27,388 bases of DNA from a virus, in the IMG/VR virus record IMGVR_UViG_3300043427_001701, positions 1 through 27,388 of that record; one strand, given 5' to 3'. Both the position numbers and the translations under genes were made by a program. Of the stretch, positions 170-13,441 are shown in pieces; the stretch's first letter is position 1, and each line of letters starts with the position of its first letter. The notes beneath the pieces are model-generated. The model did not search any database. It was not told the origin of the DNA and worked only from the letters and a program-made list of their open reading frames with translations.

Positions 170-1540
170 TTAGATTGTTTTACACAGTTCAACAAAGTCT
201 GCCATTTCGGGAAATGTTTTTTGAAAGTCGTTTCCTCTACGACGGTCTTGTTCTGTAAAGAAGTTATAAAAATCTTTACGTCCTTGAATGACTTTTTCTA
301 GAGGATATTCTGTAGTATCCATGTAATCGACCACACGACGAAACTTCTCGTACTCAATTGTACTAAACGCATCTTTGCGATTGTCATCTACGTTTTCTTT
401 GATAAACTGCAAATGATCACGCATATAGCTCACGTAGTGTTTGGGCAGTATATTAATATCATATTGCAATGGTTCTTTGAGATAAGGAGTATCAAATCCT
501 AGTCGTTGCCAACGATATGTTTCTACATCGTTGTACTTGGCCCGCCATTCGAGAATTTTTTCCAACAAGCTGCGGAATGTTGTTACACTAAAGATATTGA
601 ATGTAATCATCAATGTCATAGGTGCAGAGGTATTTCGCATCCAGTAGTCTAAGTTGCGTTCAAACACTTCAATATCAAGTCCATCTCGAATATATTCGGC
701 ACGAGTGCCCCAGGTATCAATACTACTAAACAATTTAAAGCGTCTAATTTTGTTGTTTGTTAATAAATCATTTACACGGTTTGTAAACTTTTCTAACTGA
801 CGAGGTTTGCCACCTAGGTTACTATTACAGTTAAGCTCAAGTTCAGGCTTTGGATCTGCGTCCAGCATGTCAAACAAACGATAGGTGCTCTGTTGGATTG
901 TAGGTTCGCCGCCGGTGATACGCAAAATATGTAACTCTTTACTGAGCTCTGGCCACCACTGCCAAAATGCATCAAGATATGGATTGTTTTCCTCTTCAAA
1001 GATTTTAAACCAATCAATGTCGCAACGATGATTCTTTACATTAGTGTAAGGCCCGTGCTGTGCAATTTCTTGGTAATATCTACTGCTGGCTTTTGGATGA
1101 CAATATCCGCAACGAAAGTTACATTCATTGCCAAAGCTAACTTCTAGATATTCTGGGTTTACGTTGAAAGCAGCGCCGCCTTCTTGTACTGCTTTTAGTC
1201 TATGTTTGAAGAAAATAGTTTGATTGCGCTGCTTACGATCGCTGATATAGTCCGAGCCCATATTTTCAATGTTCCAGCAATATTGACAACCTTTGGGTTG
1301 TTCTCCGCGTAGCATAGCGGCACGTTCTTCAATTTTTTGTGCTGTATTATGTATTGCACTTGGGTTGTCTTTTAGTGCATCAACATCAATTTTGTGTGGT
1401 GCAGGATGATAACAACTGTGTGTTTCTCCTGTTTGAAAATATATGTTAGCGTGGTACCATTTAGCAAAACAAAACGTAGGCGAAATAGTTTTTGTTATTT
1501 CGTCTATGCGTTTGATTTCTTCGCTTTCGCTACGCTCCAT
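170..1540 (-). CDS. Radical SAM protein with N-terminal twitch-like auxiliary cluster
   Basis: A 456-residue radical SAM enzyme. The core motif CNFRCGYC (Cys140, Cys144, Cys147) would hold the 4Fe-4S cluster that cleaves S-adenosylmethionine. ITGGEPT near residue 207 is the SAM-binding GGE motif, and FSSIDTWG lies further on in the barrel. Ahead of the core are further cysteines (Cys24, Cys43, and the Cys85-x2-Cys88 pair in GCQYCWNIE). These resemble half of a SPASM/twitch auxiliary-cluster domain, which in most peptide-modifying enzymes lies after the barrel; here it lies before it, as in the phage 'N-terminal twitch' group. The substrate is unknown. The ATG shares one base with the stop of the upstream glycosyltransferase-like gene (TAATG), so the two are translationally coupled. 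The context suggests surface or glycan-related chemistry, which is inference. Enzyme class is confident; reaction is not. Confidence 0.9.
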   Translation of the reverse strand: MERSESEEIKRIDEITKTISPTFCFAKWYHANIYFQTGETHSCYHPAPHKIDVDALKDNPSAIHNTAQKIEERAAMLRGEQPKGCQYCWNIENMGSDYISDRKQRNQTIFFKHRLKAVQEGGAAFNVNPEYLEVSFGNECNFRCGYCHPKASSRYYQEIAQHGPYTNVKNHRCDIDWFKIFEEENNPYLDAFWQWWPELSKELHILRITGGEPTIQQSTYRLFDMLDADPKPELELNCNSNLGGKPRQLEKFTNRVNDLLTNNKIRRFKLFSSIDTWGTRAEYIRDGLDIEVFERNLDYWMRNTSAPMTLMITFNIFSVTTFRSLLEKILEWRAKYNDVETYRWQRLGFDTPYLKEPLQYDINILPKHYVSYMRDHLQFIKENVDDNRKDAFSTIEYEKFRRVVDYMDTTEYPLEKVIQGRKDFYNFFTEQDRRRGNDFQKTFPEMADFVELCKTI

Positions 1541-2469
1541 TATTGCTCTCTATCTAAAAATTGTTTGCTGTTGTCTCTAGCAGGGTTTTGATATACTGTT
1601 TTAAAAAATCTGCTGCCGCCCGCATCTAATGCTGTTTCTGCAATAGGAATTTCCAGTTCATTGATAAGCAATGCACCCATATCTTCAATTCTTTCAGGCA
1701 GTTCTTCTTCTGTTATAGGTGCGATTTCTGTATCGTAAAACGCATTTAAATAATCAAAATCACGCACATTTACAAAGTCCCAATCTGTACACATTGTACG
1801 CCATAGTCCTTCTCTTGCTCCGTAAATTGCCCACATGCCGTTTTCAACATCGGCACCTACCATCAACCAAATGTAAAGACGGTGTAAATTTTTCCAGTGA
1901 TTTTTATGAAAATCTTCTATGCTTACACGCAGGCCTCTATCCAGTGCCATTTTAACACCTTCACGAAACCCAGCACGCCATGCTTGTTTAGGAGTAGCAT
2001 TGTTGTAGATGTCACTAAATGTACCGTTCATTTGTACATATTCAGTATCCCAACAAAAATCAACCTGTGCGTGTGGATTATCTGGATCGGCATTTTCATG
2101 TGTCCTCATGTTTAACACATGTTGCTTGGGCCAGCATTTAAGACCGCCGTTGCCGTATTTTAAACCGTTGATTGTATTTTGGGCTGTCCAACTAATCACT
2201 TTATTAGTTAGGTCTACGTTTGCATCAAAGTCAATTGACTGGCTGAGAAAGTCGTCACGTATTCTATTGTCGCCGTCGACTGTAATGAATCTATCCGATT
2301 CGCTAAGATTTGCTGCGGCTTTGTGTGCGCTGTCGCTGCCTTTCACACCATGAACACGTTTAGCCCACGGAACTTTTTTACACAAGTCGGCATAGTTTTG
2401 TTCAGCGTTAGGTTCGTCATAACTTAAATAAATTATGTCACAATCAATAACCCTAAATGTTTTATTCAT
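1540..2469 (-). CDS. Glycosyltransferase-like protein (GT-A type fold likely)
   Basis: A 309-residue protein starting MNKTFRVIDCDIIYLSYDEP. The opening beta strand, the KGSDSAHKAA stretch, and FITVDGDN (Asp65 and Asp67 as a DxD-type metal and nucleotide-sugar motif) fit a family 2-like GT-A glycosyltransferase. A later NGLKYGNGGLKCW segment (residues 101-113) looks like an acceptor or catalytic loop. The open frame could reach back to 2553, but I chose the ATG at 2469. A GAGG Shine-Dalgarno sequence lies six bases before it, the upstream gene ends within it (8-base overlap ATGAATAA), and the 28 extra residues are encoded entirely inside the upstream gene. It ends in a one-base overlap with the radical SAM gene. 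The sugar donor and acceptor cannot be told. An alternative is a related nucleotide-diphospho-sugar-binding protein without transfer activity. Confidence 0.7.
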   Translation of the reverse strand: MNKTFRVIDCDIIYLSYDEPNAEQNYADLCKKVPWAKRVHGVKGSDSAHKAAANLSESDRFITVDGDNRIRDDFLSQSIDFDANVDLTNKVISWTAQNTINGLKYGNGGLKCWPKQHVLNMRTHENADPDNPHAQVDFCWDTEYVQMNGTFSDIYNNATPKQAWRAGFREGVKMALDRGLRVSIEDFHKNHWKNLHRLYIWLMVGADVENGMWAIYGAREGLWRTMCTDWDFVNVRDFDYLNAFYDTEIAPITEEELPERIEDMGALLINELEIPIAETALDAGGSRFFKTVYQNPARDNSKQFLDREQ

Positions 2470-3025
2470 CAACAACCTCATAAGAATACGTAGAAAACTT
2501 ACGAACAGTATATATTGACAAGGACACCGTGTCAACTTCAAAGTCGTAATCAAACGGCACTGTGTAGTCGTCTCCGTTTTTAGTAAATTTTAAAAGTCTA
2601 TATAGTACATTAGGATCGTATTTTTTTGTAACGCTGTAATATTGCGCAGTAAGATCAACTGTTAGATCTTGTTCTTTAACGGACTTTAGGAAATCCTCAC
2701 TTAGTTTCAATCTCCAAACTTTTTGCTTTTTATCTTGTACAATTGTAACATCAGCATTGTGGTCACTGGCAACTTCCAACATAAAGGCATCTTTGAGCTG
2801 ATCTTGTTTCCATGTATTGATGTGTTTTAAAACATATTGCTTGTCTAAAAAGTCATACTCAACTTTATAATCAACCAACGACTCTCTACCTTCTAACATG
2901 CCCTTAACTTTGTCAAATGCTATTTTGATAGATTCTTCTTGATTGTCAGGATTTCTAGCAATTTTAGTTATATTGCCGTTGCTATCAAAATGCACATATC
3001 TATCAGTGATTACTTTTACCTGCAT
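2462..3025 (-). CDS. Unknown phage protein, 187 aa
   Basis: A 187-residue soluble protein starting MQVKVITDRYVHFDSNGNI, with alternating charged and hydrophobic residues and no signal peptide, membrane segment or cysteine. The C-terminal third is rich in Tyr and in short beta-strand-like stretches (for example DDYTVPFDYDFEVD). An AGGA Shine-Dalgarno sequence lies seven bases ahead of the ATG. It is one base from the stop of the preceding glycosyltransferase-like gene and overlaps the start of the next by eight bases, so it sits in the middle of a cassette of three glycosyltransferase-like genes. I do not recognise the family and assign no function. Its place suggests it is expressed with, and possibly acts with, those enzymes. 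Confidence 0.75.
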   Translation of the reverse strand: MQVKVITDRYVHFDSNGNITKIARNPDNQEESIKIAFDKVKGMLEGRESLVDYKVEYDFLDKQYVLKHINTWKQDQLKDAFMLEVASDHNADVTIVQDKKQKVWRLKLSEDFLKSVKEQDLTVDLTAQYYSVTKKYDPNVLYRLLKFTKNGDDYTVPFDYDFEVDTVSLSIYTVRKFSTYSYEVVDE

Positions 3026-3026
3026 G

Positions 3027-3872
3027 TTAGATTCCTAAATGTTTTTCATAGATTTGTATAATACGGTTATTTAAAAAATCTTTTTCGGTATAATGAAAAA
3101 TTCCACTTTGGGCGTAGTTTCCTATTTTAAGGGTCAAATCCTCGCTAAAATAAACTCCAACCCTGTCTTGCCATCTGTCAACAAAATTTTGATTCCAATT
3201 TTGTATTTTTGGTTTCATATGTACAAAGCTAGGATACTTGACTAGAGGATTAGTAATTGCAGTTTCTATATTCATAATTTTTGCAGCAATAGCAGCACTT
3301 AAATCCATACTACAGGTTTTTTGAAATATTTTTCCTCCGGCATGTACTTTATAAAATTGCTGCCAGTTATTGGTAATCATTTCCAACCATGCATAAAATT
3401 CGTGCGGTAGATCCGACTTTTTAAACCAATGCAATCCACTGTATAAATTAGGAAGATTGAATTTGGTAAATGCTTTGCGATAGTAATCGCTGGAAACGAT
3501 TTCGCCACGATAAGTGTATACGTTACTGGTATAAAAAAGATTGTAGTTTCTTAAAAAATCAAACCAGCTACTGATATCTTGTAATACCAACATGTCTGTG
3601 TCTATCACAACTGTTTCATCATAGGGTACAGCATGATATATTTTCCATCTATTACTGATTTTCCAGTCTTCGTCAACCGCATGATCGCCCCAAGGTATTT
3701 CTACAATGTGATCAAACAACGGTTTGTATCTACTAGGAACAGGGTCATTTGTAATAAGGCATATACTAGCATTGCTGTTGGTAGCACGTATACTCATTGC
3801 AGCCAGACATGCTTGGCGCACGTAATCAAAATCGCTGTTTTGTGCTAGCATGGTAAAGTTATTGGTTGTCAA
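3027..3872 (-). CDS. Glycosyltransferase-like protein with DTD motif (TTG start)
   Basis: A 281-residue GT-A-like glycosyltransferase. The first strand (FTMLAQNSDFDYVRQA) is the usual nucleotide-binding opening, and YDETVVIDTDMLV (DTD at residues 91-93) is the metal and sugar-nucleotide site, in the style of family 8-like enzymes that store or attach simple sugars. The start is TTG at 3872: GGAGAG lies five bases before it, while the nearest in-frame ATG (3851) has no Shine-Dalgarno sequence and would cut off the first beta strand. The gene overlaps the end of its upstream paralogue by 14 bases. Length, strand order and the position of the acidic motif resemble that neighbour, suggesting an old duplication. 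Donor and acceptor are unknown. Confidence 0.75.
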   Translation of the reverse strand: MTTNNFTMLAQNSDFDYVRQACLAAMSIRATNSNASICLITNDPVPSRYKPLFDHIVEIPWGDHAVDEDWKISNRWKIYHAVPYDETVVIDTDMLVLQDISSWFDFLRNYNLFYTSNVYTYRGEIVSSDYYRKAFTKFNLPNLYSGLHWFKKSDLPHEFYAWLEMITNNWQQFYKVHAGGKIFQKTCSMDLSAAIAAKIMNIETAITNPLVKYPSFVHMKPKIQNWNQNFVDRWQDRVGVYFSEDLTLKIGNYAQSGIFHYTEKDFLNNRIIQIYEKHLGI

Positions 3873-4701
3873 TACATCTCTCCAAACTAAATTTATTCAT
3901 GACATGTAAGTTACTGCCTTTAATTCTAGTTAAAGTATATTCACCGAGTCTATTTGTTTTTTCTACCATTACTATAAATTCGTCATCTTTTATACTGTGC
4001 AACACATCTTTGTCTATACAATAAAAATGTTTTCCGGGTAGCTTTCCAGCAAAACTTCCCTGTTGATAACCATTCATAATATGAATTGCTATACTAAATG
4101 CAAAGTCATTTCTATAGATATTGCTTTTAAATTGATACACACTTCTATAGTGCAGATAATTGTCTTGAATATGTTTGATTAAATCAAAAAATATTTTATT
4201 AGCCGAGGATTTTCTAAAAAAGAAAACTGTAGCCCAATAAAATTTTATACTGGTATCGCTAATAGTTTTAAATTCAGACGAATCTGTATAGGTACCCAAA
4301 TGCGTAGCAGTATCATATATTAGAAAATCCAAAGACTGATCAAAGCATTTGTTCAATAGATCATTGCTGATTACAAAATCAGTATCCATTACTATGGTTT
4401 CTTCGTAAGGTGTTAGATCATAAGCAATTGCTCTATTACCATTGTTAAAGGGTAAAATTCTATTTGCAATACTACCGTCATGATATCTGCGATTAGCATA
4501 TACAGATTTTAAATTATCTACACGAATAATTTTATCAAAACTATCAACATATTCTGGAAATTTATTTGCAACATCGTCATCTGTGATCAATGTAGTGGGC
4601 AAGTTTAAATACTTGCTTATACGTTTAGCAAGCCAATCGGCTTGCTTTAAATAATTGGTCATACTATTGTTGCTAGCAAATAATACTACGCCTCTGCTCA
4701 T
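3859..4701 (-). CDS. Glycosyltransferase-like protein with DTD motif, paralogue of the next gene
   Basis: A 280-residue protein starting MSRGVVLFASNNSMTNYLKQ. It opens with a beta strand and helix like the neighbour at 3027-3872, has LPTTLITDDD as a second strand, and carries YEETIVMDTDFV with DTD at residues 106-108, the likely metal and sugar-nucleotide binding site. Near residue 90 the phrase AIAYDLTPYEE matches the neighbour's IYHAVPYDE in position. Its ATG overlaps the stop of the upstream 115-residue gene as ATGA, a sign of coupled translation, and its own end overlaps the TTG start of its paralogue. It is probably a cytoplasmic sugar transferase that works with the other enzymes of the cassette; the substrate is unknown. 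Confidence 0.7.
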   Translation of the reverse strand: MSRGVVLFASNNSMTNYLKQADWLAKRISKYLNLPTTLITDDDVANKFPEYVDSFDKIIRVDNLKSVYANRRYHDGSIANRILPFNNGNRAIAYDLTPYEETIVMDTDFVISNDLLNKCFDQSLDFLIYDTATHLGTYTDSSEFKTISDTSIKFYWATVFFFRKSSANKIFFDLIKHIQDNYLHYRSVYQFKSNIYRNDFAFSIAIHIMNGYQQGSFAGKLPGKHFYCIDKDVLHSIKDDEFIVMVEKTNRLGEYTLTRIKGSNLHVMNKFSLERCIDNQ

Positions 4702-5045
4702 AAGTTTACAATACTTTCAACAGATCGGTTTGTTTTTAATTTGTTATATTCTGTTAGATATCTGTTAGCTGATTCAAAATATTTACTGTAAAGTTCTTGT
4801 GTAAATTGCTCTAAGTTTTCTATGTCAATTGGTGTTTGATTGTCGTCAACTAAAATAGTAGAAGTTTGATGCATTGCAAGAAGACTTTGACAAAAACTAA
4901 TCAGTTGTTGTGTAATAGTAAATTGACCGCCTCCAAAATAATACACTAGATTTTCTTGATATTGTTCTTGTAGTAGTCTTTTTTGATTGCTTAATGTAAC
5001 CATATAGTTACTGATATCCAACGCTTTTTCTAAACGTTCGTCCAT
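4698..5045 (-). CDS. Small conserved-looking phage protein, 115 aa
   Basis: A 115-residue, mostly helical protein (MDERLEKALDISNYMVTLSN...), with a Gly-rich turn FGGGQFTI in the middle and long amphipathic stretches on both sides that could form coiled coils. It resembles a small hypothetical protein found in T4-like marine phages near tail genes; this is from memory of the family and is not a functional assignment. It is the first gene after a sigma70-like promoter and has a good GGAGA Shine-Dalgarno sequence seven bases before its ATG, so it heads the glycosyltransferase and radical SAM operon. It ends in an ATGA overlap with the next gene. It could be a chaperone or partner of the enzymes, but nothing in the sequence proves this. 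Confidence 0.8.
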   Translation of the reverse strand: MDERLEKALDISNYMVTLSNQKRLLQEQYQENLVYYFGGGQFTITQQLISFCQSLLAMHQTSTILVDDNQTPIDIENLEQFTQELYSKYFESANRYLTEYNKLKTNRSVESIVNL

Positions 5046-5068: not shown

Positions 5069-5097
5069 AATATATAATGATTAAAAGAAAAAGTCAA
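5069..5097 (-). promoter_or_regulatory. Sigma70-like promoter of the glycosyltransferase / radical SAM operon
   Basis: In the 63-base gap before the 115-aa gene the minus strand reads TTGACT (5092-5097), a 17-base spacer, then TATATT (5069-5074). Each box matches the sigma70 consensus in five of six positions and the spacing is ideal. Transcription would begin around 5060 and run through the genes ending near 170. A host-type promoter here suggests that the cassette can be expressed early, apart from the late structural genes upstream. Confidence 0.65.
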
Positions 5098-5108: not shown

Positions 5109-6200
5109 TTATAGTGCAGAATTTATAGTGCCAGTAGGAGCAGAACGTTGAATTGCTGCATAAGTAGTTCCGCTTATTACAAAATCGCTGCTAGGAGTAT
5201 AGGTGTAAACATTGCTAGTGGTTATACCTCCTACCGTTTCGTCAATAGGAGTACCTACTTGACCAGGTTCAAATTGGCCTCCAGAACCTGCATCAGCATC
5301 GTCAAACTCGATTTGGAATATTAATTGTGTTGCACTTGCAAATGCGTTATTGGTGCTTGCAAGAATTCTATATTGGTTATTGTCGTAGACTGCGGTTCCA
5401 GTTGGTGATGCTGCTGTACTAACACCACCTTGTTTGGTAAAAATTACTGTGGACGGAGTTGTTCCGGTGCTAATAGTGGCCAACAAACTGCCAGTTCCGG
5501 TGCCTGGACTGATTGCTTGAGTTCTCCAGTTGGTTCCTACTCGACCAAAACGTATGGTTCCCATAGCACTAAGAACTTGCGCCCAATCCCAGTCCTTGGT
5601 ATTTGCAGTGCTGCTGGTCCCACCAACAAGACTAGCATCAAATCTTATTTCACCGCCCGCACTTAGAAAGTACAAGAATGCGTTGTGTGTTCCAAAGTCT
5701 ACTGTAACTCTATGTCGAATAACGGCGGTAGCACCAGTTCCCCACGGAGTACTTCTACTGCTACTACAACTTACTCCGAGACCAGTTCTCAATAGATTAG
5801 TTGTAAAACTACTGCTATCAAAATCAGTGCTCAAATGATTGAAGGCTGTTACAGCATTTGCTATAGTGGTAAAATCTGTAATATCTTGAAATTCAACTGA
5901 TGTACCTAGTGCAAACCCCGCAGGCAGTATAGTAGAATTTTGAGATCCAAATTGATGAACGTACCCAGCTTGTAAATCCAAATATAAATTAAACATTTGT
6001 TGCTGTGTAACTTTGTCACTGACTCCAACTGTGCTGCCGCCGGTAACAATACTGCTTACAAAATCTCTGCCATAACCGCTGGTAGTAGTACTAGTTGCAA
6101 TACCATGCTCTGTCCATGTTCCAAAATCTCCAACGCGAGTTGCGATGGACTGTCGTATATTATTGTATTCTAACGCTGTGATTGGATCTAATGCAGCCAT
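5109..6200 (-). CDS. Virion structural protein (paralogue of the 321-aa neighbour)
   Basis: A 363-residue protein, rich in Thr, Ser and Gly, poor in Lys, with the look of a phage tail or fibre-associated beta protein. After an N-terminal helix (ITALEYNNIRQSIA) come VTQQQMFNLYLDLQ and YVHQFGS (residues 64-86), a central AGGEIRFDASL (181-191) and, near the C-terminus, IEFDDADAGSGG. The same motifs occur in the same order in the 321-residue gene upstream, so the two are a tandem pair. It lies between the fibre genes and the enzyme operon, with its own AGGA Shine-Dalgarno sequence and a perfect sigma70-like promoter. Related proteins occur in marine T4-like phages as virion proteins of unknown role; a baseplate, collar or fibre position cannot be decided here. 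Confidence 0.75.
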   Translation of the reverse strand: MAALDPITALEYNNIRQSIATRVGDFGTWTEHGIATSTTTSGYGRDFVSSIVTGGSTVGVSDKVTQQQMFNLYLDLQAGYVHQFGSQNSTILPAGFALGTSVEFQDITDFTTIANAVTAFNHLSTDFDSSSFTTNLLRTGLGVSCSSSRSTPWGTGATAVIRHRVTVDFGTHNAFLYFLSAGGEIRFDASLVGGTSSTANTKDWDWAQVLSAMGTIRFGRVGTNWRTQAISPGTGTGSLLATISTGTTPSTVIFTKQGGVSTAASPTGTAVYDNNQYRILASTNNAFASATQLIFQIEFDDADAGSGGQFEPGQVGTPIDETVGGITTSNVYTYTPSSDFVISGTTYAAIQRSAPTGTINSAL

Positions 6201-6226: not shown

Positions 6227-6255
6227 ATTATAATATACTAGTAAATTATTGTCAA
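6227..6255 (-). promoter_or_regulatory. Perfect-consensus sigma70 promoter, overlapping a late-like box
   Basis: The minus strand reads TTGACA (6250-6255), a 17-base spacer, then TATAAT (6227-6232): both hexamers match the consensus fully. The -35 box directly follows the TGA of the upstream gene. The bases after the -10 box continue as AATAAATA, which matches the T4 late box TATAAATA at seven of eight positions, so the site might serve two polymerase forms. It would drive the 363-aa structural gene and possibly read on into the enzyme operon. Confidence 0.7.
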
Positions 6256-7221
6256 TCAAAGACCGCTAATTAAACTGTATGCAGGAGCAGGATTATTAAC
6301 ATAAGTCTCGCTGTCAGCTCTTAGATGGGAAACGCTGCTGGTCAACGTACCGTTTACACGTTCATCAGCACCACCTGCGCCTACGTCGCCATCATTGAAA
6401 GTAATTAAAAATCTTATGGTAGAATCGTTATCTAGCTTGGCCTGTATAGTATAAACATTATCACTGTATACTCCGCTGCCGGTTTTGGTATATACTGTTT
6501 GATAACTAGAAGTAAGATCAAGGTTACCTATCGCTGTACCGGTACCTGCACCAGAAACAGTGTCGTCTGTCACGTCGTCGGCTGTGCCATTTAAGTCATA
6601 ACTATCAGTTGATGTGTATCCAAATTTTACAGTTCTTATTGCTGTAAGCATAGCTGCCCAGTCTACGGTTTTTAGATAATCTGGATCTGTTGGGCCTAAA
6701 CTGTGAACTAAATTTGCACTAAAACGTATTTCTCCGCCGGCGTTAAAAAACCCTCTTCGTGCATTAGGAGTACTAAATGTTACCGTAAATACATGTGTTA
6801 CACTTTGAGGTAACGCAGTTCCGCCCCATACTGTCGATCTAGTACTGTTTATTGAACTGCTTTCTACTGCGGCGTAATCTGCATCAATTAAAAATCTATT
6901 GTTTTCTAGTGTGACAATATTTGTTTCATATTCGGCGTATAGGTCATCCCATATCAATCCAGTTTCACCAGTTTTAACACGAGTTGAAACATCTTCGCTT
7001 ATTAATCCGCCAGGTAAAGATCCAAACAAATGCACATAAATTTTTGTATAATCTGTTTTAAGATTATTCATTTGTTGAATAGTAACATCCCCAACCGTAA
7101 CCGGACCGCTTGCTACACTATTATTGTATCCTCTATCGCCACTACCTGGTCCTAACAAGGCAGCTATTCTGCCTTGTATTGTGTTATACCTTGCGGCCGA
7201 TACTATATCTCCAACACCCAT
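6256..7221 (-). CDS. Virion structural protein (paralogue of the 363-aa neighbour)
   Basis: A 321-residue structural-type protein. It opens with a short helix (AARYNTIQGRIAALLG), then GSGDRGYN, VTIQQMNNLKTDY and YVHLFGS (residues 46-68), a central FFNAGGEIRFSANL (158-171) and a C-terminal ITFNDGDVGAGG, each with a counterpart in the 363-residue gene downstream. There is no signal peptide, membrane segment or catalytic motif. Two aspartate-rich stretches (DLNGTADDVTDD and NDGDVGAGG) could bind calcium; this is speculation. An AAGGA Shine-Dalgarno sequence lies six bases before the ATG, and a T4 late promoter box lies in the short gap ahead. Expected to be part of the tail or fibre apparatus; exact place unknown. 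Confidence 0.75.
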   Translation of the reverse strand: MGVGDIVSAARYNTIQGRIAALLGPGSGDRGYNNSVASGPVTVGDVTIQQMNNLKTDYTKIYVHLFGSLPGGLISEDVSTRVKTGETGLIWDDLYAEYETNIVTLENNRFLIDADYAAVESSSINSTRSTVWGGTALPQSVTHVFTVTFSTPNARRGFFNAGGEIRFSANLVHSLGPTDPDYLKTVDWAAMLTAIRTVKFGYTSTDSYDLNGTADDVTDDTVSGAGTGTAIGNLDLTSSYQTVYTKTGSGVYSDNVYTIQAKLDNDSTIRFLITFNDGDVGAGGADERVNGTLTSSVSHLRADSETYVNNPAPAYSLISGL

Positions 7222-7245: not shown

Positions 7246-7253
7246 TATTTATA
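7246..7253 (-). promoter_or_regulatory. T4-type late promoter box TATAAATA
   Basis: The minus strand reads TATAAATA, an exact match to the T4 late promoter consensus recognised by the phage sigma gp55. It overlaps the TAA stop of the 503-aa fibre gene and lies about 25 bases ahead of the ATG of the 321-aa structural gene. Confidence 0.65.
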
Positions 7254-8760
7254 CTTTGAGAATACACTCTACTAATTTTTCTTCAGCACTGGTATTGGTT
7301 TCTAGTGCTATTCCGACTAATGCTCTGGTAGCAGTGGTAGTAGCAACTCCGTCGTCCATTGCATAAACTGCCTGTCCTTTTGAAACAGGTTCCTTTATTC
7401 TTACCGGTACACGACCTGCAAGTGCAATGGCTTGACCGTTTGGCAATTCTGAGTTCATTAAATAAGCTGGCTTTTCGCTGATTACACCTATGGCCAAATC
7501 AGAGCTCTTTGCAGCTCTTGCTTCAGCTGCAACGCTTGCACTTGCGATTGCCATTACTGTTCCTACAGGATAAACTTGATCAGTTGTGTATTTTTCTGCA
7601 AGGTCGGCATAACGTGCCTTTGTAGCAGTACCATTAAAAATAACTGCACTTAAATTGCCACTGCTGTCTCTTGCTGCAATAGTATTAGCAGTAGCAGTTG
7701 TGCTTGCATTTCTTCCTGTTCCGCCAACATCTAGTGTTGTTGCTTTGGTAGCAGTTCCTTGGAAACTGTCAGCATAGATGTTTGCCCATTTTAAACTAGC
7801 ACTACCGATGTTATATGTTGCATCCACTTCAGGAAAAATACCAGTTTCAGTTGAACTAGTATTTCTTACACTAAAAATATTCGATGCTCCTACTCCGCTT
7901 CGTGTTGCACCAAACAGGATTCTATCGCCCACATTATTAACAATACTACCGTTTGTGCCACTTACAATAGTAACTGCCAAATCATTACTGTTACCTACAG
8001 TAAATCCGCTGTCGGCAAAACGAGCAATAGATGTAAAGTTTGCGGTTGTAGCAGTTAAAAAGTCGCTGGCCGGTTGACCGCCTAATCTTAGAGCATTACT
8101 TGCTGTACCCCAAACTACTGGTCCTCCTACTGTGCCAGCACCTGTGGTTACACCAGTAGTACTATCAGTATTGATTAAGGTGATACCACGTCTTATTAGT
8201 GTAAATCCAGTTAGGTCAGGAACGCTAGCAGGCTGAGTAGCATTTAATGTAAATTCGTTTGAACTGATTGTGTATACAGGAGTGTCGTTGATTAGTGCAA
8301 TAATTATCGATTTATTTGCGCTTAAACTGTCAACAACATTAACGCTGAGCATTTGAGTAGTGCCATCACCTGCTGCTTGAGGACCAACTAAAATAAATTC
8401 ACCAGTATCGGTTTTTGCATACAATTGATTGCTGGTTGTACTATACCACAAGTCACCTTCGTTTAGACCTGCTGGCTCTGTAGCAGCAACTTCGGCGCCG
8501 CCGGCATTTTTCCAAGTGCCACCTGTGTAAAATTTTAATTTAGCTGTACCGGAATCATACCATACCTGGCCAGTTATTGCTTTTGTTGGAGGAGTTGTAT
8601 TAGAAAAGCTTTCTAGCAAATGAACAAAGTTTTCATTTTGTGCTTCGCCGTATCCGCTGAAATTTTTACCTACTAATTTTAGGTCAGTGCTTTGATCAAC
8701 GGTACCATCTTCAACTACAACAAGTTGATTACCGTTATAACTGTTAATAATGTATGCCAT
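7249..8760 (-). CDS. Tail fibre protein with shared N-terminal anchor and ADLAEK-type C-terminal domain
   Basis: A 503-residue fibre. The first 130 residues form a domain shared with the two fibres upstream: ENFVHLLESF (43-52), GQVWYD (64-69), GDLWYS (102-107) and LVGP (124-127), probably the part that attaches to the particle. The middle is a Thr/Ser/Gly/Ala-rich beta shaft with the typical fibre phrase YNIGSASLKWANIYA. The last 120 residues (from YADLAEKY, 384-503) form a compact domain known from fibres of marine T4-like phages. It is distantly reminiscent of C-terminal trimerisation or self-cleaving fibre domains, but I see no proof of cleavage. A strong GAGGAG Shine-Dalgarno sequence and a late-like box precede it. 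Likely role: receptor contact or a fibre segment at the tail tip. Confidence 0.85.
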   Translation of the reverse strand: MAYIINSYNGNQLVVVEDGTVDQSTDLKLVGKNFSGYGEAQNENFVHLLESFSNTTPPTKAITGQVWYDSGTAKLKFYTGGTWKNAGGAEVAATEPAGLNEGDLWYSTTSNQLYAKTDTGEFILVGPQAAGDGTTQMLSVNVVDSLSANKSIIIALINDTPVYTISSNEFTLNATQPASVPDLTGFTLIRRGITLINTDSTTGVTTGAGTVGGPVVWGTASNALRLGGQPASDFLTATTANFTSIARFADSGFTVGNSNDLAVTIVSGTNGSIVNNVGDRILFGATRSGVGASNIFSVRNTSSTETGIFPEVDATYNIGSASLKWANIYADSFQGTATKATTLDVGGTGRNASTTATANTIAARDSSGNLSAVIFNGTATKARYADLAEKYTTDQVYPVGTVMAIASASVAAEARAAKSSDLAIGVISEKPAYLMNSELPNGQAIALAGRVPVRIKEPVSKGQAVYAMDDGVATTTATRALVGIALETNTSAEEKLVECILKV

Positions 8761-8782
8761 TTTTGCTCCTCGTGCTTACAGT

Positions 8783-8790
8783 TATTTATC
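8783..8790 (-). promoter_or_regulatory. Late-like promoter box GATAAATA
   Basis: The minus strand reads CGATAAATA in the 35-base gap between two fibre genes, one base from the T4 late consensus and identical to the box at 13434-13441. It would start the 503-aa fibre transcript, with the ATG 23 bases downstream. Confidence 0.5.
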
Positions 8791-8795
8791 GCATT

Positions 8796-10697
8796 TTACG
8801 GATATGCTACTGTTGACTGCCATTGCCAGTCGCTAGATACATGCGCAAATTCGATGATGTATTTTGTAACTGTAAATGTTACGGTTGTAGTAGGATCAGG
8901 ACTGACTGTAATATCCTGTAGAACGTTAACGTTTTGAACACCAGCACTGTCAACTGCAATTGTACTCTTGTTAATGTTGCTATTAACATCAATAGGATCA
9001 GTTGCAGCCGTTATTTGCGAAGCTAGAATTCTTACAATCGATCCTTGAACTTTTGACGCAGGCAATGGCATAAAAACTAATAGAAAACCTCTTAGGTTAT
9101 TCTCGAGAGCACCTGGAGAAGTACTGCCGTCATATTCGCCTATTTGTGCTGCACCCATACCTGTAACATCCATGGTAAGATAGGTTGTTGCTGCCAAGAC
9201 TTCTCGATCCACATACCCCTTTGTAGCTACATGATTGTCATTAGATTCGGTTAATAATGGATTTTGTATTACGTCAAATTCACTTACAGGTTTTTTTACG
9301 TTTGTAATAAACTGTTGATTAACTAAGTCTATGTCGCCTGTTGCTGAAATTTCAAAATTAGAACTTACACTGATTCTGTTTCCATTTAAATTAATGTTAT
9401 CTATGGTTAATTCTGTAAGTGTACCTAAAGTTTGAAGGTTACTGTTTACAACTGTGCTGCCTAGTGTTGTTTTACTTAAAACATTTAGGCTATCAATTTT
9501 ATAAGTTTCAGCACTGTTACTAATGTCAATACCCTGATTGCTGGTCCAAGATTTTGTTGCATTTTTCCAAGTCCATGTTTTGTTTTCACCGGTATGTAAA
9601 ACTGGACCACTTCTAACTACTATGCCCGAATCGTCTAAATCTATGTCAGACAACACAGTACTGCCATCTTGTATAGACAGTTCTATTTGCTTGTCTTCGA
9701 CTAACAGAGTTTGTGTTGAAATAGTTGTTGTAGCACCTTCGATTATTAAATCTCCAGTAACTCTAACATCACCATTAACATCAAGTGTGTAAGCCGGAGC
9801 AGTTTCTTTGAACAATCCTAATCGTTGATTGGTAGCATCAAATCTAGCAGCCATAAATTCGCCGCTGCCATTACGCATCTTTAAATATAAATCTTTGTTT
9901 GTTCCGTTGTTTCTTAAAACAGTTATTGTACTTTCTTTGGTGATAGTAAACGGTTCGTCAGCAAAAATTTCAATACCGGAATTATTTGATATTGTAAGTT
10001 TACCAGTGGTGGTATCGTTTTCAGTTGCACTTAAAAAATTATCCTTGGTATAAGTATTACCTAAGTTGTCTATTAGGCTTTCTGCAGACAATGCTTTGCC
10101 ATACCATGTAAAATCATTAAAGCTAGAGCTAATATTAAATCCAACTTTTAAGTCAAGAAATCCGCTGATTAACGGAAATGGTGTAAACGCTACTCTTGAA
10201 TAAATTCCTACTAAGCTGCCTCCAACGTAAAACTTTACAATTATTCTATTTTGACCAGTGGAATCTTTGACTGTAGATACTTCATTTCCTGATCTAGCTT
10301 GAGTTTTAGAATAATCAGGGCCTACTAGAACCAGTTGAGTTCCGTCCCAAAAATACATTTGGTTGTTGGTTCCATCTATCCAGATATCGCCTTGTGTTAA
10401 ATTTGTTGGCTGTGTACTAGAAAATATAGTGCTGTCTGTGCTTTTAAAAGTAGCACCGTCATAGACTTTTAACCTACCTTCAGCAGTGTCATACCAAACT
10501 TGCCCTCTAATTGGTTTTGCAGGCGGAGCAGTGTTAGCAAAACTTTCTAAAAGTTTAATAAAATTTTCATTTAAAACTTCGCCAAAGCCTTGGTAATTTT
10601 TTCCTATTAATGCTAGATTTGTAGTACTTGTATCTAATCTACCATCTACTAGTTCAACTAATAAGCTTCCATCAGTTTTATTTAAATTATAACTCAT
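8796..10697 (-). CDS. Tail fibre protein, 633 aa, member of the fibre paralogue family
   Basis: A 633-residue fibre with the shared N-terminal domain: ENFIKLLESF (44-53), GQVWYD (65-70), GDIWID (103-108) and LVGPDYS (124-130). The middle contains a phage-fibre beta shaft with the phrases LDVNGDVRVTGDLIIEG and LLVEDKQIELS, often seen in marine T4-like fibre proteins. It then has HVATKGYVDRE, a common fibre helix leading into the tip, and a C-terminal domain of about 140 residues ending WQWQSTVAYP that I do not recognise. It starts in a TAATG overlap with the upstream collar-domain fibre, with GGGG six bases ahead, so the two are coupled. No enzymatic motif is visible. Likely a fibre or baseplate-attached spike segment. 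Confidence 0.85.
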   Translation of the reverse strand: MSYNLNKTDGSLLVELVDGRLDTSTTNLALIGKNYQGFGEVLNENFIKLLESFANTAPPAKPIRGQVWYDTAEGRLKVYDGATFKSTDSTIFSSTQPTNLTQGDIWIDGTNNQMYFWDGTQLVLVGPDYSKTQARSGNEVSTVKDSTGQNRIIVKFYVGGSLVGIYSRVAFTPFPLISGFLDLKVGFNISSSFNDFTWYGKALSAESLIDNLGNTYTKDNFLSATENDTTTGKLTISNNSGIEIFADEPFTITKESTITVLRNNGTNKDLYLKMRNGSGEFMAARFDATNQRLGLFKETAPAYTLDVNGDVRVTGDLIIEGATTTISTQTLLVEDKQIELSIQDGSTVLSDIDLDDSGIVVRSGPVLHTGENKTWTWKNATKSWTSNQGIDISNSAETYKIDSLNVLSKTTLGSTVVNSNLQTLGTLTELTIDNINLNGNRISVSSNFEISATGDIDLVNQQFITNVKKPVSEFDVIQNPLLTESNDNHVATKGYVDREVLAATTYLTMDVTGMGAAQIGEYDGSTSPGALENNLRGFLLVFMPLPASKVQGSIVRILASQITAATDPIDVNSNINKSTIAVDSAGVQNVNVLQDITVSPDPTTTVTFTVTKYIIEFAHVSSDWQWQSTVAYP

Positions 10698-12805
10698 TAT
10701 ATTACCCCGTGATAGATGATAAAGTTAATAGTAGCAAACGGATTGGTAACATTAACAGGTGTGTTGGTTGTACCGTCAAAGATTCCACCACTTAGTCCAA
10801 GTCTGCTGCCGAGACCGCCATCAATTCCGCCGCCAATTAATGTCTCAGGAGCAGTAGTAGTTGCGTTCGTTACTGCATAAAACTGTTCGCCGGTGCTGCT
10901 TTGTAAATCATGTTGGTGTTCAGGAAGATTATTTATATCAAGTGTAACAGTTTCGTTTCCGGCTACTCCGCCCATTGTACCTGCTGCACTGTTGCTTATT
11001 CTGTTAGCGCCGCCAGGTAAACCTAAGCCAACCGGTATACGCCCTCTATAATCAGGCAATCTAAATAAATTGCTTGGATCGCTTGGATTACCAAAATACC
11101 ATGTAGTGGAATCTACAGCACTGTACCCTAGTGCTGTTGCCAAAGCACCGTATGTGGTTAGTGACACTTCGTCATTGTCACAGAAAAACCAACCAGTTGG
11201 TGCTATCAAGCCGCCGTACATGATTACGCTTCCAACCGGAATAGTTGAAACGCTGCTTATGACTTGTGCTTGAGTAGCTTTGTACAGTGTGCCGGATCTA
11301 TTGATTAGCAATTCATCTGTGCTTTGTATACTGCCGGGTGATGCAGTTGTAATACTTGGCTTTGTATCAACAAAACTTGCTGCTAACGAAGTACTAAAGG
11401 TTTTTGTACTTCCGCCTGTTTGTCCGTCAAATGTAAATCCACTACTAGTAACATCACCGGTCATATTAAATGTTGTAGCACTGTTTAATTTACTAGCACT
11501 TCCTGTTATATTGCCTGTTACATTGCCTTGTAGATCTCCTACAAATGTACCACCAAAAAAGGTTGTTGCATATACGCCTGCAAATTTATTGGAACTTGTT
11601 CCCAAAGTACTGATGTTTGATGCAGATGGAGGAACAATTGCGCCTGCTGTGTTGCCTACAGTGAGCGTTCCTTCTATGGTTGTATTACTGCCAACCCTCA
11701 GTTGTTTTGCAATACCTACCCCGCCTTTGACTGTTAGTGCGCCAGTGGCTGCACTTATGCTATCAAATTCGCTTCTAACAGTAAGTTTACCGCTGGTGTC
11801 TAATGCAGCATCGTCGCCGTCTTCGACACCAATGTTAACATTGCCTTTGATGTCTAGTTTTTCTTCTGGACCTAGGTTGTTAATACCTAGATTTCCATTA
11901 TTAGCAATACGCACTACAGGATTTCTAGTTACTGGAGTTCTAATATCAATTGTGCCTGCACCGCTCAACTCTAGTATACCGCTTGATCCTTCGACTAGCA
12001 TACTAAAAGTTTTTATTGTTCCTACATCTAGACCGTTGTTTGGAAGTTTGATAGAGTTATTAAAAATCTGTGTACCAGCTGCTGAATCTTTTCTTGCCAA
12101 ATCATTGACTAAAATTGTTCCGGCTATGTTTGACGTGTCATCTGGGTTAAGATTAAGTCTTTCGGCTGTCTTGGCTTCGCCTGCTATTTTGGCTTTTTGA
12201 CCGCTGATGTTAGGACTTAGATTTACCCCAACTGAAATAGTGTTACCACTGTTCCATCCTCCTAAAGCAGATTTTAATCTAAATTGTACTGCACTTAGTA
12301 TACTAACTGGAATATTATTAACATAATTGACAATTACGTCTCTATTAATGTTAGCAGTATCAACAACAATTTCTGGAATAGCACCTGTTTTGTTTCCGGT
12401 GGTAAAACTAGGACCTACTAGAATCCAGCCAGAACCTGTATACAAATACAGTTGGCTAGTACTAGTGTTAACCCAGAGGTCTCCTACTACACTGTTAACA
12501 GCTTCAGGTTCACTTGATGCTTTTTTTAATCCGCCTGCTGCAACCCAATTGGTGCCATCATATATTTTTAATTGATCAACGCCGTTGGTAGTGTCATACC
12601 ACAATTGTCCTTCTACTGGACTAGTAGGTGGATTTACATCTGCAAAGTTTTCCATGAGATGTAAAAAGTTTGTTAACACACTAGAACCGTAGTCTTTTAA
12701 ATTTCTACCAGGTAAAAGTAGGCTGGTTTCTGTATTAATACTATTATCATCTACAGTTATTGTACCCTTGTTAGCAACATCGGTAAATGGAATATTATAT
12801 GCCAT
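10697..12805 (-). CDS. Tail fibre protein with C-terminal phage tail collar domain
   Basis: A 702-residue fibre. The N-terminal domain is the divergent third copy of the shared anchor: LTNFLHLMENF (44-54), GQLWYD (66-71), GDLWVN (108-113) and ILVGP (128-132). The shaft has repeated beta phrases (for example LTVKGGVGIAKQLRVGS, and a Gly/Asn run FVGDLQGNVTGNITGS). Residues 522-702 are a phage tail collar domain: IPVGSVIMYGG, APTGWFFCDN, FRLPDYRGR and LPEHQHD. The collar fold is that of the T4 short tail fibre gp12, and the HxH pair is of the kind that binds metal in fibre tips. Start and stop codons both overlap neighbours as TAATG, so it is co-translated with genes on both sides. A GGAGGA Shine-Dalgarno sequence supports the start. 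Probable receptor-binding fibre. Confidence 0.9.
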   Translation of the reverse strand: MAYNIPFTDVANKGTITVDDNSINTETSLLLPGRNLKDYGSSVLTNFLHLMENFADVNPPTSPVEGQLWYDTTNGVDQLKIYDGTNWVAAGGLKKASSEPEAVNSVVGDLWVNTSTSQLYLYTGSGWILVGPSFTTGNKTGAIPEIVVDTANINRDVIVNYVNNIPVSILSAVQFRLKSALGGWNSGNTISVGVNLSPNISGQKAKIAGEAKTAERLNLNPDDTSNIAGTILVNDLARKDSAAGTQIFNNSIKLPNNGLDVGTIKTFSMLVEGSSGILELSGAGTIDIRTPVTRNPVVRIANNGNLGINNLGPEEKLDIKGNVNIGVEDGDDAALDTSGKLTVRSEFDSISAATGALTVKGGVGIAKQLRVGSNTTIEGTLTVGNTAGAIVPPSASNISTLGTSSNKFAGVYATTFFGGTFVGDLQGNVTGNITGSASKLNSATTFNMTGDVTSSGFTFDGQTGGSTKTFSTSLAASFVDTKPSITTASPGSIQSTDELLINRSGTLYKATQAQVISSVSTIPVGSVIMYGGLIAPTGWFFCDNDEVSLTTYGALATALGYSAVDSTTWYFGNPSDPSNLFRLPDYRGRIPVGLGLPGGANRISNSAAGTMGGVAGNETVTLDINNLPEHQHDLQSSTGEQFYAVTNATTTAPETLIGGGIDGGLGSRLGLSGGIFDGTTNTPVNVTNPFATINFIIYHGVI

Positions 12806-13413
12806 TAGCTATTTCCTCCGCTCAAGCTTTGTACTCTAACTGTGTAGTCGATTTGTATCAATCTGTTTAAACTTTTTTGCACAGGATGGAATATCACGTG
12901 AGTTAGTAATCTACCACTGCCTGTAGGAGAATAACTTTTCAATCCAAGTTCGTCAAACACAAACTGGTCTTCTGCATTAGCAGCGGTATCAAATGCTGCT
13001 TGACCATTGGGCTCACCGTAATCTAATAAACAAGTAACAAAAATATCAGTATAATTTGTGCCGCTAACGTGTCTAGTTTCAATCTTGTTTCTTGTTGGAT
13101 CGAGATTGTTTACACTGCGATCGTCAACAACCTTACTATAAGTTTTGTTATACAAGCTTGCATTAGTGCCGACACTGTTAGGAGTGAGGTAAGTAATAAT
13201 TCCGGTAGGGTCGACACTGGTTCCGCCATTGCCAAAGTCCATTTCGTAAATAAAACCTTGACCGATGTTGGCTAGACTTTCTGCTAATGCAATACTCATA
13301 TTTTCATAATGAATAGCGTTACGCTTGTTAATAAAAATTTCACCAGAATCTGGATTATGAATTTTTATGTGTCCTTCGACGTGAACACCGCTATAATCTG
13401 TTTTTTGTTCCAT
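12805..13413 (-). CDS. Virion structural protein, 202 aa, head of the fibre operon
   Basis: A 202-residue protein starting MEQKTDYSGVHVEGHIKIHNP, of a type found next to fibre genes in marine T4-like phages. It has an N-terminal beta part (HIKIHNPDSGEIFINKRNAIHYENM), a Gly-rich middle (MDFGNGGTSVDPTG), and a C-terminal part (FVFDELGLKSY, then LLTHVIFHPVQ and IDYTVRVQS). No signal peptide, membrane segment or catalytic motif is seen. It starts 23 bases after the giant gene, behind a late-like box and a GAGGT ribosome site, and ends in a TAATG overlap with the collar-domain fibre. That coupling suggests its product assembles with the fibre, perhaps as an adaptor or chaperone. The exact role is not known to me. 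Confidence 0.8.
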   Translation of the reverse strand: MEQKTDYSGVHVEGHIKIHNPDSGEIFINKRNAIHYENMSIALAESLANIGQGFIYEMDFGNGGTSVDPTGIITYLTPNSVGTNASLYNKTYSKVVDDRSVNNLDPTRNKIETRHVSGTNYTDIFVTCLLDYGEPNGQAAFDTAANAEDQFVFDELGLKSYSPTGSGRLLTHVIFHPVQKSLNRLIQIDYTVRVQSLSGGNS

Positions 13414-13433
13414 GTTACCTCACCTGTGTAGTG

Positions 13434-13441
13434 TATTTATC
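13434..13441 (-). promoter_or_regulatory. Late-like promoter box GATAAATA overlapping the giant gene's stop
   Basis: The minus strand reads CGATAAATAC, one base from the T4 late consensus. The TAA inside it is the stop codon of the giant gene. It would launch the operon of the 202-aa protein and two coupled fibre genes. Confidence 0.5.

Follow-up and report, generated by a model that had tools for sequence, protein, structure and literature searches.

What do a radical S-adenosylmethionine (SAM) enzyme and three glycosyltransferase-like proteins modify when their genes stand in one operon directly beside the tail fibre genes of a marine virus? This question is raised by the IMG/VR virus record IMGVR_UViG_3300043427_001701, a contig fragment of 27,388 bases, the whole of which is considered here and referred to as the window. 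From high to low coordinates, its minus strand carries genes for a giant virion protein and a 202-amino-acid (aa) protein (g202), five fibre genes, an operon of six genes (hel115, DTD1, DTD2, unk187, DGD and rSAM1) and the start of a seventh gene, which runs off the contig. In our opinion, this operon may tentatively be regarded as the invariant head of a modification island on the fibre side, in which glycosyltransferases and radical SAM enzymes would modify the phage's own fibre or tip proteins. We know of no function for radical SAM arrays in phages.

A conserved operon strictly linked to the fibre genes

An earlier sequence-only reading of this DNA had proposed six abutting or overlapping genes behind one sigma70-like promoter. 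All six were found on the minus strand exactly where they had been placed, with junctions of -4, -14, +1, -8 and -1 nt; identical or similar junctions occur in relatives. A seventh gene follows, however, and a larger island extends beyond the operon, which forms just its front. The ATG of this seventh gene lies 2 nt past the rSAM1 stop and its first 55 codons are present; its homologue in relatives (G002_040) has 204 aa and is weakly similar to FeeM and acyltransferases (E 0.04).

A search of IMG/VR with rSAM1 gave 238 matching stretches, 80 of which were kept for the comparison of gene order. Wherever the contig was long enough, the order of fibres, hel115, DTD1, DTD2, unk187, DGD and the radical SAM gene recurred. 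In loci picked by hel115 alone and having at least 6.5 kb downstream, DTD1, DTD2, unk187 and DGD followed in order in 57 of 57, and the operon was linked to the fibre block in all of them. The same radical SAM gene ended the operon in 53 of these loci, and the other four had different twitch radical SAM genes nearby. When loci were picked by the tail gene g202 (at least 599 matched stretches in the scan) and had at least 9 kb downstream, the operon was found after the fibres in 40/45, and the contigs of the five exceptions end within an enlarged fibre block. It is thus well supported by the 57 loci, which keep both order and content, that the six genes form one dedicated unit, as had been proposed from the sequence. 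The check then suggested, co-occurrence in other marine phages, revealed no scattered, independent genes in either set of loci.

Median identity to the window is 86% for the radical SAM protein, 77% for DGD, 72% for DTD2 and hel115, 61% for DTD1 and 41% for unk187. Among relatives rSAM1 is 72-92% identical, the mean column identity of DGD is about 81%, and the aligned set of hel115 (70 orthologues) shows 48-76% identity; unk187 has 72 orthologues. The dN/dS values are about 0.02-0.25 in the closest pairs, with dS near saturation. Purifying selection is strongest on rSAM1, DTD2 and DGD, which are more conserved than the fibre proteins. The 363 aa and 321 aa fibre-tip-like proteins vary, with 25-77% identity in relatives, and the 702 aa protein matches tail and tail-fibre families of PHROGs.

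Two promoters are conserved with the operon. P1 was recognized in 36/36 distinct upstream regions of hel115, with a score of at least 10/12 and a spacer of exactly 17 nt (shuffled controls about 5%); its consensus in relatives is TTGAC(A/T)-N17-TATA(A/C/T)T, and most flanking bases differ. P2 is present in 38/40 distinct upstream regions of DGD, mostly at -66/-67 from its start (shuffled controls about 6%). Promoter-like sites upstream of the remaining four operon genes occur at background level, so the operon has one main promoter and an internal one for DGD and rSAM1. Hence the single sigma70-like promoter of the sequence-only reading is real, but it is accompanied by a second. The operon is probably transcribed by the host sigma70 polymerase, as the form of both sites suggests. 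T4-type late promoters were considered as a source of operon expression and rejected: TATAAATA is rare and sigma70-like sites dominate.

Enzyme classes and the radical SAM island

The radical SAM enzyme expected at the end of the operon was confirmed, rSAM1 scoring 306.6 bits against NCBIfam NF033640 (N_Twi_rSAM; cut-off 170) over profile positions 1-397 of 398. The motif C140xxxC144xxC147, the GGE residues (G210, G211, E212) and the N-terminal twitch cysteines C24, C43, C85 and C88, putative ligands of an auxiliary cluster, are invariant in 12 diverse orthologues, and the twitch cysteines are aligned across paralogues too. Judged by this profile, rSAM1 is a clear member of NF033640, a family whose name denotes the fold only and whose function is uncharacterised. 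It shares with the family the score above the cut-off, the CxxxCxxC motif and the twitch cysteines, whereas what sets it apart from the family at large is that its gene is a conserved member of a phage operon beside the fibre genes. The rSAM1 profile had no match in the PDB. A peptide scan found no close bacterial homologues, and more distant ones were reached through the alignment of paralogues.

The classes of the three glycosyltransferase-like proteins probably hold as well. The DTD2 profile matches glycogenin-1 chains (glycogenin belongs to glycosyltransferase family 8, GT8) at E of about 1e-3 over residues 6-105, and its D91 and D93 are invariant. DTD1, with invariant D106-T-D108, is homologous to DTD2 (hhalign probability 98%, E 8e-14); it has no direct Pfam or PDB match and is linked to GT8 enzymes solely through DTD2. 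Neither protein matched a curated GT8 family of Pfam or NCBIfam at E 1, and therefore both are called GT8-like only. DGD had no family match at the sequence level; its structural model has a mean predicted local distance difference test (pLDDT) value of 75.6, and the top PDB fold matches are nearly all of the glycosyltransferase A (GT-A) or nucleotidyltransferase type, although weak (best E 8e-4, template modelling score about 0.3). The idea that DGD is a relative of DTD2 was unsupported (hhalign probability 0.5%). Family searches gave no match for hel115, and unk187, modelled by AlphaFold at a mean pLDDT of 85, matches nothing but uncharacterised phage proteins. A tblastn search for homologues in cultured phages found none for DGD, DTD1 and hel115 and one 27% match for DTD2; a homologue of DGD and hel115 supposed to exist in a cyanophage could not be confirmed.

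An island of 30-40 kb, of which the operon is the front, was seen in related contigs; the window breaks off just behind this front part. The twitch radical SAM model gave 8-21 matches beside the operon in 12/12 related contigs, a stricter count with nine sequences gave 8-20 radical SAM genes in eight related contigs, and a wider sample of 14 contigs had 0-8 strong matches each, 13/14 being positive; all island contigs are fragments, and these numbers are lower bounds. Three phages contributed 111 island proteins, of which 44 match Pfam Radical_SAM (E <=1e-3), 42 the twitch family (E <=1e-4) and 17 SPASM, so that radical SAM enzymes make up about four in ten. The same set includes matches to Asp/Asn hydroxylase (5), nitroreductase (3), FkbM (2) and B12-binding (2) families and one each to AMP-ligase, UDP-sugar dehydrogenase, SET, desaturase and amidotransferase families. 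Families of the GtrA flippase, of the GtrB membrane glycosyltransferase and of flippases or polymerases had no Pfam match in the window proteins or in these 111.

Several other features of the island were observed. Near its start, a 64 aa protein (G001_045, oriented 76736-76930 on the L058 contig, and homologues) is 73-89% conserved in eight related contigs, and a second DGD-family protein with an extra or duplicated domain has its own consensus promoter (L059:4107-4778, L077:5631-6278, G002_043, G001_043). At 95-106 kb of the oriented G001 contig (L083, L084), at least four Asp/Asn hydroxylase-like proteins are encoded in a run together with a SET-domain protein and a fatty acid desaturase. 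One island radical SAM gene is apparently split (G012_032/G012_033), its auxiliary-cluster domain forming a separate small open reading frame (ORF); Bdellovibrionota have a comparable small ORF (L137_09, L138_07). A tryptophan halogenase-like protein (phrog_2928, E 6e-90) was found in the same phage group at L089:13972-15615 on the minus strand.

Table 1. Genes and promoters located in the window.
Feature	Coordinates	Strand	Description
hel115	4698-5045	minus	small conserved first gene; no family match
DTD1	3859-4701	minus	GT-A/GT8-like glycosyltransferase-like protein
DTD2	3027-3872	minus	GT8/glycogenin-like glycosyltransferase-like protein
unk187	2462-3025	minus	fast-evolving beta-rich protein
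DGD	1540-2469	minus	GT-A-fold glycosyltransferase-like protein; ATG start; the TTG-started ORF is longer
rSAM1	170-1540	minus	twitch-domain radical SAM enzyme
Seventh gene	3-167	minus	N-terminus of an acyltransferase-like protein; ATG at 167; cut by contig end
Operon promoter P1, TTGACT-N17-TATATT	5069-5097	minus	conserved in relatives
Internal promoter P2 for DGD-rSAM1, TTGACA-N17-TATACT	2507-2535	minus	inside unk187
Promoter of fibre gene f363, TTGACA-N17-TATAAT	6227-6255	minus	perfect consensus
Two related fibre-tip-like genes	5109-6200 (363 aa), 6256-7221 (321 aa)	minus	adjoin operon
Tail fibre/collar-like genes (503, 633, 702 aa)	7249-12805	minus	gene order conserved
202 aa tail-region protein g202 (phrog_11259) and giant virion protein (>=4,608 aa)	12805-27386	minus	

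Cultured relatives and comparable loci

The major capsid protein of the group is of the T4 type (phrog_138) and shares 69% identity with its counterpart in Sinorhizobium phage Phosso and 66% with that in GAP32; g202 is 56% identical to its homologue in Phosso and 53% to that in Atu_ph07. From these identities, the window phage is judged to be a T4-superfamily jumbo phage, a marine relative of Atu_ph07/Rak2-like phages. The order of giant virion protein, g202 and fibre is common to the marine group, Phosso and Atu_ph07, and the first two of these proteins serve as anchors between the window locus and the two cultured phages. The binning of one contig of the group as 'Rickettsiales MED657' gives no more than a hint at the host. 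Contigs L129 and L132 of metagenome-assembled genomes (MAGs), labelled Rickettsiales MED657 and Neisseriaceae, bear genes of the group at 50-76% identity and are probably mis-binned phage.

In Phosso and Atu_ph07, with genomes of 470-490 kb, all Radical_SAM-family matches (four each) sit just past the giant virion protein, the g202 homologue and a fibre. The slot contains, in order, a cupin-like gene, a radical SAM gene, a gene for a protein ending in CHTSCHASCHSSRSRR or CHSSCHASCHNSRSRR, a gene for a phrog_20767 protein and more radical SAM genes. The tailed proteins of the two phages are 42% identical overall, their CHxSCHASCHxSRSRR tails are nearly identical and the adjacent radical SAM proteins are 81% identical; such a variable protein with a conserved tail beside a conserved radical SAM enzyme looks like an enzyme and its putative substrate. 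When the motif was scanned for, this arrangement turned up again on a phage contig of 250 kb (L338), the tail there being enlarged to a long array of CHxS repeats. Phosso radical SAM protein 290 most resembles the peptide maturases PapB and DynA, below the cut-offs. As an observation in its own right, the set of a radical SAM gene, a protein with a C-terminal CHxSCHxSCHxSR(S/G)RR tail, a phrog_20767 protein and further radical SAM genes is a conserved phage operon (Phosso L173:23272-30396; Atu_ph07 L174:19025-26097; a third locus at L338:1564-9734; also L337) and looks like a family of radical SAM-modified virion proteins.

The numbering of Atu_ph07 genes was anchored on the major capsid protein gp215 (AUZ94997) and the portal gp198, so that gpN corresponds to AUZ(94782+N), and numbering from the first coding sequence (CDS) was rejected after this anchoring. 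The tail-bearing AUZ94952 is accordingly gp170. In the Atu_ph07 paper, mass spectrometry defines a virion-protein cluster 'CDS 170-215', of which gp170 is the first gene (PMC6102473). Both fibre-side regions have radical SAM genes in the slot after the giant virion protein, the g202 homologue and a fibre, whereas Phosso and Atu_ph07 differ from the window in their SPASM-type enzymes, in the CHxS-tailed candidate substrate and in that no relatives of hel115 or DTD2 were detected. The search for these two proteins, which gave no match in Phosso, Atu_ph07, K566 and KVP40, had no positive control in those records.

Twitch radical SAM genes also stand beside glycosyltransferase-like genes in the cultured phages K566 and KVP40. 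In Vibrio phage K566, four of them alternate with two proteins that look by eye like DxD glycosyltransferases and with a GT4-like gene; in KVP40, just one small gene separates a radical SAM gene from that of a PF00534 glycosyltransferase (KVP40.0272/0274). Unlike in the window, the arrangement in these phages is unrelated, with few copies and about 25% identity. Bacterial arrays of twitch radical SAM genes are mostly found in Bdellovibrionota, some with homologues of DGD, Asp/Asn hydroxylase and aminotransferase-like genes common to the phage island, and a DGD homologue there adjoins a twitch radical SAM gene. MAGs of this group (L115, L116, L121, L125, L137, L138, L140 and others) contain tandems of 3-10 twitch radical SAM genes together with Asp/Asn hydroxylase, aminotransferase-like, amidinotransferase-like and DGD genes. 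In a zetaproteobacterial MAG (L145:5187-18211), four twitch radical SAM genes belong to a locus of the O-antigen type that also encodes RmlC, RmlD, Wzt and WbsX; one of the radical SAM proteins is fused to the Wzt ABC-transporter ATPase, and carbamoyltransferases occur near other bacterial arrays. By analogy, the bacterial, K566 and KVP40 contexts support a sugar-linked chemistry, and they form the chief evidence that the host surface might be the target.

That no function had been described for the gene set, as the sequence-only reading stated, is correct, yet earlier papers had already noticed that marine T4-like phages have radical SAM cassettes close to their tail fibres (PMC7029224, PMC5332604), in both cases mentioned and left unexplained. 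The host-recognition cluster of pelagimyophages has such cassettes and GT8 genes near tail fibres, and Asp/Asn hydroxylase, also present in the island, is a core gene in pelagimyophages (PMC7029224). Both groups are T4-like marine phages with GT8-type genes and radical SAM cassettes near the fibres, but pelagimyophages have genomes of 132-164 kb and a hypervariable cluster, whereas the window group are jumbo phages in which six invariant genes head an island with as many as about 20 radical SAM genes. The marine T4-like virus TARA_ERS488813_N000010 likewise combines multiple radical SAM genes, 12 in number, in a single genome; the available part of its account lists them under Fe-S metabolism and includes no fibre linkage, glycosyltransferases or operon (PMC5332604). 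In the open-access literature, subscription journals and preprints being outside the search, no paper on fibre-side radical SAM arrays in jumbo phages was found.

Possible targets of the modification

During infection, host sigma70 RNA polymerase would read all operon genes from P1 and DGD and rSAM1 also from P2. The three GT-A-type proteins DTD1, DTD2 and DGD may transfer sugars, and rSAM1 would cleave SAM reductively at a [4Fe-4S] cluster to give a 5'-deoxyadenosyl radical, which could then alter an unactivated position of the substrate that the glycosyltransferases act on or of the sugar attached to it. This substrate would most likely be the receptor-binding fibre or tip proteins encoded directly upstream, and other island enzymes (further radical SAM proteins, Asp/Asn hydroxylases, methyltransferases and others) may add lineage-specific tailoring. 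Virion glycosylation by glycosyltransferases that phages or viruses encode near their structural genes takes place in mycobacteriophages and in PBCV-1, and the operon resembles these systems in the position of its glycosyltransferase-like genes. No radical SAM tailoring is known to us in either case.

The operon might instead remodel the host surface, its enzymes building or altering sugars of the host O-antigen or capsule and thus hindering competing phages or lysis debris from adsorbing. This is a possibility that we take seriously and rank below fibre modification, and the two are compatible. It agrees with the published proposal for the GT8-rich, radical SAM-containing host-recognition clusters of pelagimyophages (PMC7029224), with the zetaproteobacterial array and its Wzt fusion, with the carbamoyltransferases near other arrays, with the UDP-sugar dehydrogenase of the island and the glycogenin/GT8 similarity of DTD2, and with sigma70 promoters of its own that permit early expression. 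The lack of Pfam matches to GtrA/GtrB-type or flippase/polymerase families in the window and island proteins speaks against it, as do Asp/Asn hydroxylases and a SET domain, unexpected for work on a polysaccharide, and a fibre linkage far tighter than a freely acting surface pathway requires. Modification of the fibres is favoured because of this tight linkage, the tailed candidate substrate in the slot of the relatives and the protein-type tailoring enzymes, among which the five Asp/Asn hydroxylases and the SET domain count. Also in its favour are the strong purifying selection on rSAM1, DTD2 and DGD, the place of gp170 at the head of the virion-protein cluster, the resemblance of Phosso protein 290 to peptide maturases and the alternating genes of K566. 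Some points weigh against it. Twitch radical SAM arrays in bacterial O-antigen-type loci would point to glycans rather than proteins, and the UDP-sugar dehydrogenase and SGNH-like genes of the island fit polysaccharide work. The presence of gp170 in virions is deduced from the cluster boundary; neither CHxS-type nor other recognisable substrate motifs were found in the marine phages, where other precursor types are possible; and since rSAM1 has an N-terminal twitch and the Phosso enzymes a C-terminal SPASM domain, a shared position does not mean shared enzyme ancestry.

Two further explanations are less probable. The island might make a soluble or secreted peptide resembling ribosomally synthesized and post-translationally modified peptides (RiPPs), a natural product or a cofactor, with the operon as its regulatory and glycosylating head. 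The mix of radical SAM, AMP-ligase, amidotransferase/Asn-synthase, nitroreductase, FkbM methyltransferase, aminotransferase-like and hydroxylase genes and the conserved 64 aa protein at the island start would suit this, but the whole of this protein is conserved and it lacks a variable core, neither a leader/core architecture nor an exporter was recognised, and the fibre-side position is left unexplained, which makes it improbable. Generic Fe-S or auxiliary metabolism or nucleic-acid modification, the fibre linkage being due to chance or late-operon packing, seems very improbable. The Fe-S listing in PMC5332604 and some island PP-loop proteins that are QueC-like by eye are in its favour; against this, the radical SAM genes of three sampled lineages cluster in the fibre-side slot and not in replication or nucleotide modules, and glycosyltransferases with DxD-type motifs are their invariant companions.

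Radical SAM enzymes carry out chemistry available to few other enzymes, and here a widespread and abundant group of uncultured marine phages keeps an invariant radical SAM/glycosyltransferase operon next to the fibre genes, together with an island whose genes are about 40% of the radical SAM type. A bolder and rather unlikely idea is that the fibres are diversified chemically, up to about 20 radical SAM enzymes together with glycosyltransferases and Asp/Asn hydroxylases modifying proteins of the tail, and in Phosso and Atu_ph07 the proteins that end in CHxS motifs would be the candidate substrate; if true, this would be a viral counterpart of radical SAM peptide maturation, on virion proteins. 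Because this slot exists in two cultured relatives, the question can now be put to the test. If the host surface is the target, infected marine cells would be recoated with unusual glycans; if the fibre is the target, host recognition would have a chemical layer that is missed by sequence-based prediction.

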